A program made the position numbers and the translations under genes. The notes beneath the pieces are model-generated. The model searched no databases and was not told where the DNA came from. It saw only the letters and a program-made list of their open reading frames with translations. Of a stretch of 64,000 bases of DNA, positions 57,476 through 61,029 are shown piece by piece (the first letter of the stretch is position 1; each line of letters opens with the position of its first letter). Source of the DNA: Halobacterium hubeiense (GTDB lineage Archaea > Halobacteriota > Halobacteria > Halobacteriales > Halobacteriaceae); assembly GCF_001488575.1 (NCBI RefSeq), contig NZ_LN831302.1, positions 1,302,001-1,366,000 of the forward strand, given 5' to 3'.

Positions 57476-58795
57476 TTACTCCTCGTCGTCGGGGGCGTCG
57501 ACGCGGCGCTTGACGTCGACCTGGTACTCCTGGAGGATGTCCCGGCCGAGCAACAGCGGGTAGTCCATGTGGCCGCGGTCCTCCAGCGACGCGGCGACGG
57601 TGTGGCGGTCGCCACCGACGCCGACGACGATGTCCACGACCGGCCGCGACTTCCCGGCCTTCACGCTCCCGGAGCGGACTTTCGTCATCGACTTGATGGG
57701 GCCGGCGCCGATTTGGGCGGCGAGCCGGGTGTCGATGCTCGTGCGCGCGGCGCCGGTGTCGGCCTTCGCGACGACGCGCTCGGTGCCGCTCGTCCCGGAG
57801 ACCAGCACGTCCTCGGTGTAGCCGATGGTCGCGGACGCCTCGCCGGCGGGCCGGGGCTCGGTCGCCACCGAATCGGGCTTGGAGTCGTCGAGCGTCTGCG
57901 CGAGCTCGGCGACCCGGTCGTCGTCGACGTCGCCGCCCGCCGTCTCGATGGCGAGCTTCGCGACGTACGGCGCGGGGCTGACACCGGTCGCCTCGAACAG
58001 CCCCTTGAACCCGGCCGTGGGGTTGATTTCGAGGAGGTACCAGCCGTCGGTGCCCTCCACGAGGTCGACGCCGGCGTAGTCGAGGCCGATGGCGTCAGCG
58101 GCTGTCAGCGCCATCTCGGCGGCCTCCTCGGGCACGTCGTCGACGCCCTCGACGGAGCCGCCGAGCGCGACGTTCGTCCGCCAGTCGTTGTCGGGCGCGT
58201 ACCGCCGCATCGTCGCGACGATGTCGCCGTCCACGACGTACACGCGGAGGTCGCGGTGGCGGTCGCTGTCCCGCTCGACGAGCTCCTGGAGGAACGCGTA
58301 CCGGTCGCCCACCCGGGGGTTGACGCGCTCGTCCGCGCTGATTTTCCACGTGCCGCCGCCGTGTGTGCCGATGGCGGTCTTGTAGACGACCTCGTCGCCG
58401 TACTTCGCCTTCTCGTCGTTGAGCCGGTCGGCGTCCAGCGCGAGCGTCGCGTCCGGCAGTCGGACGTCGCCGTTCGCGAGCGTGGTCGCAGTCGCGAACT
58501 TGTGGAACGCCGTCAGGACGTTCCGCGGGCGGTTCAGCATCGGCCGGAGCTGGCTCAGCGACAGCGCCAGCCCCAGCAGTTCCGCGGGCTGTTCGGTCTT
58601 CGAGAGGAGCAGGCGGTTGGCGATGACGTCGACGTACGGGTCGAGCGTCGAGTCGTCGTCCGCGATGTCCACGCAGAGGTTGTCCTCGCGGAGCCACACG
58701 CCCGAGTGGCCGAGCGCTTCCACCGCGTTCAGTATCGCCTTCGTCTCCTTGCTGTTGTGGAGGCTGAGTACGCCGACAGAGACAGAGTCGTCCAT
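57476..58795 (-). CDS. RimK-type ATP-grasp ligase fused to retropepsin-like protease domain
   Basis: A 439-residue fusion. Residues 1-95 are the RimK N-domain (VGVLSLHNSKETKAILNAVEALG), about 100-285 the ATP-grasp core (VYKTAIGTHGGGTWKI; WYLLEINPTAGFKGL with metal Glu/Asn). Residues about 330-430 match the RimK-linked 'ATP-dependent zinc protease' family, with KADTGAARTSIDT (Asp-Thr-Gly) and LLLGRDIL. RimK enzymes join amino acids to proteins or small molecules; the added aspartic-protease-like domain could remove them. Divergent from an aspartoacylase-family gene. Confidence 0.85.
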   Translation of the reverse strand: MDDSVSVGVLSLHNSKETKAILNAVEALGHSGVWLREDNLCVDIADDDSTLDPYVDVIANRLLLSKTEQPAELLGLALSLSQLRPMLNRPRNVLTAFHKFATATTLANGDVRLPDATLALDADRLNDEKAKYGDEVVYKTAIGTHGGGTWKISADERVNPRVGDRYAFLQELVERDSDRHRDLRVYVVDGDIVATMRRYAPDNDWRTNVALGGSVEGVDDVPEEAAEMALTAADAIGLDYAGVDLVEGTDGWYLLEINPTAGFKGLFEATGVSPAPYVAKLAIETAGGDVDDDRVAELAQTLDDSKPDSVATEPRPAGEASATIGYTEDVLVSGTSGTERVVAKADTGAARTSIDTRLAAQIGAGPIKSMTKVRSGSVKAGKSRPVVDIVVGVGGDRHTVAASLEDRGHMDYPLLLGRDILQEYQVDVKRRVDAPDDEE

Positions 58796-58880
58796 CCCGT
58801 GAACTGACGGCGGGCAGCGACTAAACGGTGCCGACGGTTCGGACGGCCCTGTTTTACGTGTCGCTCGCGAACCTTGGTCC

Positions 58881-59900
58881 ATGACCGACGGGGCGTTCAC
58901 GTACGACGGCGGCCGGGTGGACCCCGGGGAGCGCGCGGACATCCGGTACACCATCAGCGAGACGTACCTCGGGGACCCGGTCCGCATCCCCGTCTCCATC
59001 GTGAACGGCGAACAGCCCGGTCCCACCGTCTTCCTCTCAGCGGCCTCCCACGGCGACGAACTCAACGGCATCGAAGTGGTGCGGGAGGTCTCCCACGAGT
59101 GGTCGCACGCCAACCTCCACGGGACGCTGGTGTGTCTGCCCGTGCTGAACGTCCCGGGGTTCGTCACCCAGCAGCGCTACCTCCCCGTCTACGACCGCGA
59201 CCTGAACCGCTCGTTCCCCGGCAACGACGCCTCGACGAGCGCCAAGCGGATGGCCGACCAGATTTTCCGGAACTTCCTCGCGCCCTGCGACTTCGGGCTG
59301 GACTTCCACACCTCGACCCGGGGCCGCACGAACATGCTCCACGTCCGCGCGGACATGACCGACGACGACGTGGTTCGGCTCGCGCGGTCGTTCGGCTCGA
59401 ACGTCGTCATCGACAGCGAGGGGTCGTCGGGGACGCTCCGCCGCGAGGCGACCGAGGCCGGCGTCCCGACCGTCACCGTGGAGATGGGGGAAGCCCACCG
59501 GTTCCAGCGCGGGCTCATCGACCGCGCGCTCGACGGCGTCCACAGCGTGCTCGCGGGGTACGGCATCTATCCGACGGAGGCCGTGGACCTGCCGGCGTGG
59601 TGGACCGTCGTCACGACCGACCAGAAGACGTGGATTCGCGCGGACGACGGCGGCCTCGTGGACATGCACTACGAGCGCGGCGACCTCGTCCGCGAGGGCG
59701 ACGCCATCTGCAGCATCTCGAACCCGTTCAAGACCGACGTCGCGGACGTGGAGGCGCCGTTCACGGGACTGCTCGTCGGGAAACTGGAGAACCCCGTCGT
59801 CTACCCGGGGAACCCGCTGGTCCACCTCGTGGAACTCGACGCCGCGACCCAGCGCGCCTACGAGCGGGCCCGCGAGGCGGGGTCCGGGCCGCCGGCCTGA
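58881..59900 (+). CDS. Succinylglutamate desuccinylase/aspartoacylase-family zinc hydrolase
   Basis: A 339-residue zinc deacylase. The metal motif HGDE at residues 57-60 (SAASHGDELNGIEVV) and the third ligand His near 145 in DFHTSTRGRTN are intact; the Glu base is in TVEMGEAHRF near 198. It hydrolyses an N-acyl amino acid or small peptide bond. The start lies 86 bases from the divergent RimK-fusion gene. That pairing occurs in other prokaryotes and suggests one makes, and one cleaves, the same acylated or aminoacylated product. Confidence 0.85.
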   Translation: MTDGAFTYDGGRVDPGERADIRYTISETYLGDPVRIPVSIVNGEQPGPTVFLSAASHGDELNGIEVVREVSHEWSHANLHGTLVCLPVLNVPGFVTQQRYLPVYDRDLNRSFPGNDASTSAKRMADQIFRNFLAPCDFGLDFHTSTRGRTNMLHVRADMTDDDVVRLARSFGSNVVIDSEGSSGTLRREATEAGVPTVTVEMGEAHRFQRGLIDRALDGVHSVLAGYGIYPTEAVDLPAWWTVVTTDQKTWIRADDGGLVDMHYERGDLVREGDAICSISNPFKTDVADVEAPFTGLLVGKLENPVVYPGNPLVHLVELDAATQRAYERAREAGSGPPA

Positions 59901-60066: not shown

Positions 60067-61029
60067 ATGTCGGACCACTCGACTCACACCAGACGCAGCA
60101 TCGTGAAGGCAGTCGGCGCGACCGCCGCGGCCGGCCTGTTCACCGGCGCGGCGAGCGCGGCGACAAGCGACGAGGGCGGACTCGAAGTCGTCGAGTCCCC
60201 CACCGCGAGCACGCTCTACGACGTCGAATCCACGACCGCGGGCGCGTTCGCGGTCGGCAGCGGCGGCGTGGTACTCGAACGCACCGCGAACGGCTGGGAG
60301 AAGCTCCTCGACGGCGGCCCGACGGGGAACGGAAACAGCGTCTACGGCGCTGACGTGACCGACGACGGGAAGCGGCTGTGGTTCGTCGGCTCCTCCGGCG
60401 CCATCGGCGAGTACGACGTCGAAGCCGGCGTCCTCAACGACCACTCCGCGCCCATGGACGTCACGAACAACTTCAACGACGTCTCCGTCACCGGCGAGGC
60501 CGGCGAGGCGAACGTCTACGTCGCCGGCGACTCCGGGAAGATGTACTTCTCCTACGAGAACGGCGAGACCGGCTCGTGGGACTACACGACGCCCGGCTCG
60601 GGTGCCGCAATCAACGCCGTGGACTTCTTCGACGACCGCAGCGGCCACATCGTCGACGGCAACACCAGCGTGTTCTACACGCGCGACGGCGGCACGTGGG
60701 ACAAGCTCGGCATCGCGAACGCCAACCACAACTTCTACGGTGTCGACTCGGACGGCTTCGACGACGTCTGGATCTCGGGCGGCGGCGGCACCGTCTACCA
60801 CTGGAACGGCAGCGAGTGGGTGCGCTCGGACACCGGCGACGCCACCCTCCGCGACGTCGAAGTCGCCGACGGTAGCGGCGCCACGGTCGGCGGCGGCGGG
60901 AAGTTCTACGCCTACGACGGCAGCAAGTGGGCGGCCCAGAGCACGCCGACCGGCCAGAACCTGAAGGCGGTGCTGCGCGGCGACACCACCATCGCGGTCG
61001 GTGCCGGCGGCACCATCCTCGAAGGCTGA
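60067..61029 (+). CDS. Tat-exported beta-propeller protein (BNR/YCF48-like repeats)
   Basis: A 320-residue protein. TRRSIVKAVGATAAAGLFTG near 8-27 is a twin-arginine signal ending at about Ala32. The mature part has regular strand blocks with GAFAVGSGGVVLERTANGWEKLL and VWISGGGGTVYHWNGSEWVRSD, a WxxL/W pattern typical of photosynthesis-type (YCF48/BNR) beta-propellers, six or seven blades. It acts outside the cell. No catalytic motif is evident. Upstream 165 bases (59901-60066) are AT-richer. Confidence 0.78.
   Translation: MSDHSTHTRRSIVKAVGATAAAGLFTGAASAATSDEGGLEVVESPTASTLYDVESTTAGAFAVGSGGVVLERTANGWEKLLDGGPTGNGNSVYGADVTDDGKRLWFVGSSGAIGEYDVEAGVLNDHSAPMDVTNNFNDVSVTGEAGEANVYVAGDSGKMYFSYENGETGSWDYTTPGSGAAINAVDFFDDRSGHIVDGNTSVFYTRDGGTWDKLGIANANHNFYGVDSDGFDDVWISGGGGTVYHWNGSEWVRSDTGDATLRDVEVADGSGATVGGGGKFYAYDGSKWAAQSTPTGQNLKAVLRGDTTIAVGAGGTILEG

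Follow-up and report, generated by a model that had tools for sequence, protein, structure and literature searches.

The locus raises the question of what a predicted amino-acid ligase, fused to a predicted protease and encoded back to back with a predicted zinc hydrolase, would do in a haloarchaeon. We analyzed a stretch of 64,000 nucleotides from Halobacterium hubeiense (contig NZ_LN831302.1, positions 1,302,001 to 1,366,000; hereafter the window), in which the following features were located.

57476..58795, minus strand: RimK-RimB fusion gene (ATP-grasp ligase, then C-terminal retropepsin), 439 aa from ATG
57980..58504, minus strand: RimK ATP-grasp domain of the fusion, residues 98-272 (Pfam PF08443; alignment of 33 fusions)
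57500..57838, minus strand: RimB-type retropepsin domain of the fusion, about residues 320-432 (Pfam PF05618, profile comparison, model plus fold search)
57752-57760, minus strand: DTG of the retropepsin, residues 346-348
Residues 415-419 of the fusion: LLGRD of the retropepsin
58796..58880, no strand: intergenic region, 85 bp
Centre 58823, minus strand: TATA-like TTTAG, 28 bp before the fusion ATG (read from the sequence)
Centre 58854, plus strand: TATA-like TTTTA, 27 bp before the hydrolase ATG (read from the sequence)
58881..59900, plus strand: AstE/AspA-type zinc hydrolase, 339 aa
61178..61570, plus strand: sdhC, first gene of the succinate dehydrogenase operon (context only)

The ligase-protease fusion and the zinc hydrolase

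The fusion was taken to start at the ATG giving the 439-aa form, from which homologues align at residues 1-6, while the mechanical open reading frame reaches an upstream GTG. In Pfam, the RimK domain (PF08443) covered residues 98-272 with 81 bits against a cut-off of 21. The alignment of 33 fusions showed that the RimK active-site residues and the DTG motif were retained in the main copies; K139, R184, R206, and N208 were conserved in the RimK half, and the ExNPTAGFKG region of the metal/ATP site was present in nearly all copies. By its domain and active-site residues, the fusion would be a member of the RimK family of ATP-grasp amino-acid ligases. Its RimK domain is divergent: the NCBIfam RimK-family model TIGR00768 gave 130 bits, below its cut-off of 143, and PRK10446, the equivalog for bS6-glutamate ligase of the E. 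coli RimK type, gave 55 bits against 331. The MptN and LysX models outscored the bacterial RimK model and were the best after the general RimK model. Identity as a coenzyme or lysine ligase was rejected, as the NCBIfam equivalog cut-offs were not reached by MptN (112 of 350 bits), CofF (60 of 300), or LysX (93 of 276), and a separate LysX is encoded elsewhere in the genome. A third RimK-like protein, 283 aa long, is also encoded in the genome (L213:3966-4814; G000:C1, near 289000) and scored below every curated model cut-off.

The C-terminal half matched Zn_protease/RimB (PF05618) at residues 367-431 with 35.5 bits against a Pfam cut-off of 27. Profile comparison of the haloarchaeal C-terminal domains with bacterial RimB aligned the DTGA and LLGR motifs and gave 96% probability and an E-value of 2e-9. 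Furthermore, an AlphaFold model of this domain alone (pLDDT 79, the central loop being of low confidence) showed fold matches to Lpg0085 (2pma), RloA, Ddi1, and HIV protease. Bacterial RimB is longer than this domain; the DTG motif of the domain and modelled retropepsin fold are those expected of the RimB/retropepsin group, in which we place it as a predicted member. A stand-alone frame of 127 aa (G025:C59:67023-67355) was 49% identical to the fusion's retropepsin half. Among second-copy fusions, L085 (G029:C1, about 1704178-1705371) lacks RimK residues 232-268, which comprise the metal/ATP-site region, with the frame open, and is probably a ligase-dead paralogue; L092 (G045:C1:3490850-3492136) carries EPVA in place of the DTG motif and is probably protease-dead.

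The divergently encoded protein matched AstE_AspA_cat (PF24827) with 167 bits against a Pfam cut-off of 25. Residues H57, E60, and H143, which are the zinc ligands by motif, are invariant, as are E201, R99, N109, and R110. With the H-x-x-E plus H ligands, the RDLNR motif, and the catalytic Glu, the protein is predicted to be a zinc hydrolase of the AstE/AspA type, and it retains, as mapped by motif, the zinc- and carboxylate-binding residues described for aspartoacylase-type enzymes (PMC10998430). The NCBIfam equivalog cut-offs for DoeB (105 of 403 bits), aspartoacylase (37 of 180), and AstE (26 of 306) were not reached. In the model (pLDDT 86), the best fold matches were DoeB and its relatives, CphZ and aspartoacylase being less close. 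Profile alignments further revealed four extra invariant arginines, R149, R156, R187, and R207, which were absent from two Vibrio relatives and from DoeB; a binding pocket that accepts acidic substrates with several charges would be expected to have such residues. The hydrolase also has an ASPA-type C-terminal domain, which may restrict it to small substrates. The genome encodes another hydrolase of this family immediately 3' of korAB (L212:4350-5420; G000:C1:505849-506919). This paralogue occurs in a minority of genomes, and a general link between AstE paralogues and TCA genes was dropped, since korAB was its neighbor only in the window's own genus.

These assignments leave room for a small-molecule pathway, in which the ligase would make a short amino-acyl or acyl-glutamyl metabolite (a coenzyme tail, an NAAG-like dipeptide, or an osmolyte) and the hydrolase would recycle an N-acyl acidic amino acid to succinate or acetate plus glutamate. 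Such a pathway fits the rank of the MptN and LysX models and the resemblance of the hydrolase to DoeB and ASPA, which are enzymes of small N-acyl amino acids. However, the MptN, LysX, and CofF cut-offs are far off, LysX is separately encoded, and the fused polyglutamate-type protease is left unexplained; we regard this pathway as rather unlikely.

Occurrence and arrangement of the pair

The fusion and a close hydrolase were both present in 132 of the 146 haloarchaeal genomes and both missing from 13, in which only a distant member of the hydrolase family was kept; one genome, G110, was the exception. The pairing is not due to chance. Together with the Pfam domains, the profile comparison, and the models, these counts bear out the preliminary description of a RimK/retropepsin fusion divergent from an aspartoacylase-like hydrolase. 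In G110, the hydrolase was intact and the adjoining fusion remnant spanned residues 3-68 only, whereas in G114 the fusion was gone and a hydrolase stump of residues 260-329 was left. In G018, the pair was absent and the flanking genes had closed up. The losses in G018, G014, G052, G114, and G110 occurred within genera whose other members retain the pair, which indicates several separate losses. The co-loss of adjacent genes can stem from one deletion; however, this is not the whole explanation, because genomes with unlinked copies (e.g., G093, G064, G029, G136, G124, and G131) retain both.

We listed 150 fusion copies, of which 90 were divergent neighbors of the hydrolase under a 400-bp limit, with a gap of 80-277 bp (median 149). 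A further 35, under a 5-kb limit, were divergent with 1.1-4.7 kb between the genes, 2 were tandem, and 23, many of them second copies, were unlinked or on other contigs. In the window, the gap is 85 bp rather than the 86 bp first reported, and the proposal that it forms a shared promoter region under joint control was not sustained, given the spread of adjacent gaps, the widely spaced and unlinked pairs, and the two TATA-like boxes. These boxes would mark a separate promoter for each gene, placed back to back, and not a shared control region. Bacterial-type promoters and terminators were not found in the region, nor are they expected in an archaeon. At the two family f3 loci examined, the insert between the pair was a polysaccharide flippase and/or GNAT gene (L063 8952-10418 and L064 9516-10280, flippase and/or GNAT acetyltransferase with DUF5816). 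Three second pairs were found as divergent units in two genomes (G023:C2, G063:C10, and G063:C13). For a small protein beside second pairs, a LysW-like carrier role was rejected, its best Pfam match being the HVO_A0261 N-terminal domain, just under the cut-off.

Downstream of the hydrolase, sdhC was located on the same strand in 103 of 133 genomes at a median gap of 166 bp, a position that favors the small-molecule pathway described above. Between the hydrolase and sdhC, the window has an inserted gene (60067-61029) for a putatively secreted protein that weakly resembles YCF48 and starts with a twin-arginine-like sequence. The search for conserved neighborhoods that the preliminary description had suggested found one in haloarchaea, so that the lack of any, which it had named as counting against it, did not come about. 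The flanking genes, in the order glycosylase, fusion, hydrolase, and sdh, were likewise conserved across many haloarchaea, and the fusion and hydrolase might be neighbors by history only, held in a class-level gene order with no joint function and removed together by single deletions. Nevertheless, the two co-occur even where unlinked, second pairs travel as units, and bacteria and methanogens encode these three activities in operons (see below). This historical reading is already largely refuted, and we consider it highly improbable.

Three-gene operons and a proposed function

The proteins nearest to the window hydrolase were hydrolases encoded in three-gene operons (Salinivibrio, 37% identity, 4e-73), and its nearest relatives came mostly from marine or halophilic gammaproteobacteria. 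In 46 of the 80 nearest relatives of the bacterial operon hydrolase, whether bacterial or methanogen, rimK and rimB were both found within 4 kb. The order rimB-rimK-hydrolase on one strand was observed in 44 of the 80, rimK only in 4, and neither gene in 30; the sample was picked by likeness to the Salinivibrio protein, and these fractions are therefore not general frequencies. In several Marinobacter the operon had MscS genes next to it, and in Pseudoalteromonas it had CorA genes; in a Vibrio and on a Salinivibrio plasmid, magnesium transporter and mechanosensitive channel genes surrounded it. Within the window's phylum, one further family, to which Methanolobus belongs, had the hydrolase in 16 genomes, and 14 of these carried the full operon. 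Two loci from methanogen-family genomes (L198 and L199) showed rimK and the hydrolase, with rimB absent from the short stretch covered and another RimK-like gene on the other strand. The link of the operon with salty habitats is suggestive.

A quick tree placed the haloarchaeal hydrolases beside the bacterial and methanogen ones, with a long branch between. In the RimK tree, the RimK domain of the fusion fell outside the operon RimK group, although long branches make this placement unsure. The haloarchaeal fusion thus does not seem to have arisen simply by joining rimB and rimK of the operon.

Taken together, we propose that the fusion and the hydrolase are, on balance, probably a module that builds and dismantles a glutamate-type chain. 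In an ATP-driven reaction, the RimK half would extend either an acceptor or a growing free chain with an acidic amino acid, most probably L-glutamate in alpha linkage. The retropepsin half, as a dimer, would make internal cuts in the chain and may stimulate the ligase, like bacterial RimB. The hydrolase would then finish the short acidic products, either a dipeptide or an N-acyl amino acid, so that glutamate would re-enter central metabolism. We infer glutamate as the substrate, the order of the steps, the role of the hydrolase, and any link with salt or ion balance. This proposal draws on the cyanophycin parallel, in which a synthetase and a peptidase are followed by CphZ, on the cutting of polyglutamate by RimB and RloA, and on the residues of the hydrolase, as well as on the conserved pairing and the three-gene operons. 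Bacterial RimB and RimK jointly make free poly-alpha-L-glutamate, which RimB cuts (PMC11957791), and RloA, a relative of RimB, cleaves polyglutamate and plays a part under hypoosmotic stress (PMC12239564). Furthermore, fusions exist in two opposite orders, in bacteria and in haloarchaea, which suggests that the ligase and protease domains work as a unit. Against the proposal stand the divergence of the RimK domain, the failure of a published RimBK hybrid to glutamylate RpsF (PMC11957791), the ASPA-type C-terminal domain of the hydrolase, the fact that one deletion can account for a co-loss, and the haloarchaeal neighbors, which indicate the TCA cycle (sdh) as much as polymer metabolism.

The make-and-remove system of the preliminary description accordingly gains partial support from the pairing, the co-loss, the second-copy pairs, and the three-gene operons; its mention of comparable gene sets in some marine bacteria agrees with the operons above. 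A more specific form, in which the single synthase-protease polypeptide makes free poly-alpha-L-glutamate or glutamylates a non-ribosomal protein, with the retropepsin and the hydrolase setting its level in ion or osmotic balance, a trait that would be shared with marine bacteria and with methanogens from saline environments, is put forward only tentatively.

Alternatively, the fusion may add and trim a C-terminal glutamate tail on a specific haloarchaeal protein, and the hydrolase would be an M14-type exo-deglutamylase removing the last residues. TTLL and CCP enzymes add and trim glutamate tails on tubulin, in parallel to RimK and RimB on bS6. A writer fused to an eraser suits the dynamic control of such a tail, a protein tail is the substrate of RimK and RimB in Pseudomonas (PMC11957791), and the AstE/AspA enzymes are members of the M14 carboxypeptidase family (PMC3187862). 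However, bS6 (PF01250), the known target, was absent from this genome (G000) in a search whose control was positive in 10 bacterial genomes. Thus, bS6 was rejected as the target, and any target in these archaea would have to be new. Moreover, the genes beside the pair included no candidate for a target, and the C-terminal domain of the hydrolase is of the kind thought to confine ASPA to small substrates. Tail editing is therefore a doubtful alternative, though one to be kept in view; both it and the small-molecule pathway overlap the chain-building module in their common ligase and protease steps.

If true, the chain-building module would place RimK/RimB chemistry in archaea without bS6 and add a conserved third partner to a system so far known as two proteins. 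The pair is present in most of the sampled haloarchaeal genomes and bears on the role of RimK and RimB where their substrate is something other than bS6.

Comparison with known systems

RimK, RimB, bacterial RimBK hybrids, and the AstE/AspA enzymes are already described. The RimB-RimK system of Pseudomonas fluorescens (rim operon) shares with the haloarchaeal fusion a RimK-type ligase, a RimB-type retropepsin, and the DTG motif. In contrast, its genes are separate and occur with bS6, its RimK is not of the divergent haloarchaeal kind, the haloarchaeal retropepsin is shorter, and an AstE-type hydrolase is not described in PMC11957791. The RimBK hybrids of Desulfotalea, Flavobacteriales, and Rhodobacterales, like the haloarchaeal fusion, combine ligase and retropepsin in one polypeptide, and their protease cuts polyglutamate tails (Little et al. 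2025). However, RimB is N-terminal in these hybrids, an order also seen in Thioclava RimBK, whereas it is C-terminal in the haloarchaeal fusion (RimK 98-272, retropepsin about 320-432). That survey covered bacteria only, with archaea unmentioned (Little et al. 2025). The rloABC genes of Pseudomonas (RloA retropepsin, RloC ATP-grasp, and RloB) also bring together a retropepsin and an ATP-grasp protein, but RloA is secreted, a transglutaminase-like membrane protein is involved, and there is no AstE-type hydrolase. DoeB/EutE, aspartoacylase, and AstE have in common with the hydrolase the fold and the zinc and carboxylate motifs; the hydrolase differs in its sub-cut-off equivalog scores and in the four arginines, which the compared DoeB sequences lack.

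The PADLOC anti-phage defense models gave no match for the pair, and identity as a defense system was rejected. No published account of the archaeal RimK-retropepsin fusion, the hydrolase pairing, or the methanogen operon was found in our search. The work of Iyer and colleagues (2009) on ATP-grasp amidoligases, which stood outside that search, reportedly discusses RimK neighborhoods with peptidases, and the three-gene set may have been described before.

The rimB-rimK-AstE operons of marine gammaproteobacteria and Methanosarcinaceae contain the same three activities, with a related hydrolase carrying the same invariant residues. They differ in having three genes on one strand, another RimK lineage, and, in several bacteria, MscS, CorA, or MgtE nearby. 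The cyanophycin system CphA/CphB/CphZ offers the parallel in the order of steps: an ATP-grasp-type synthetase builds the polymer, a peptidase cuts it, and a dipeptide hydrolase of the AstE family acts last. CphZ is termed an isoaspartyl dipeptidase (PMC12661447), and its PDB entry name and fold match identify it as an AstE-type hydrolase. Nevertheless, cyanophycin is an Asp-Arg polymer, CphB is an unrelated peptidase, and CphZ is only distantly similar to the haloarchaeal hydrolase.
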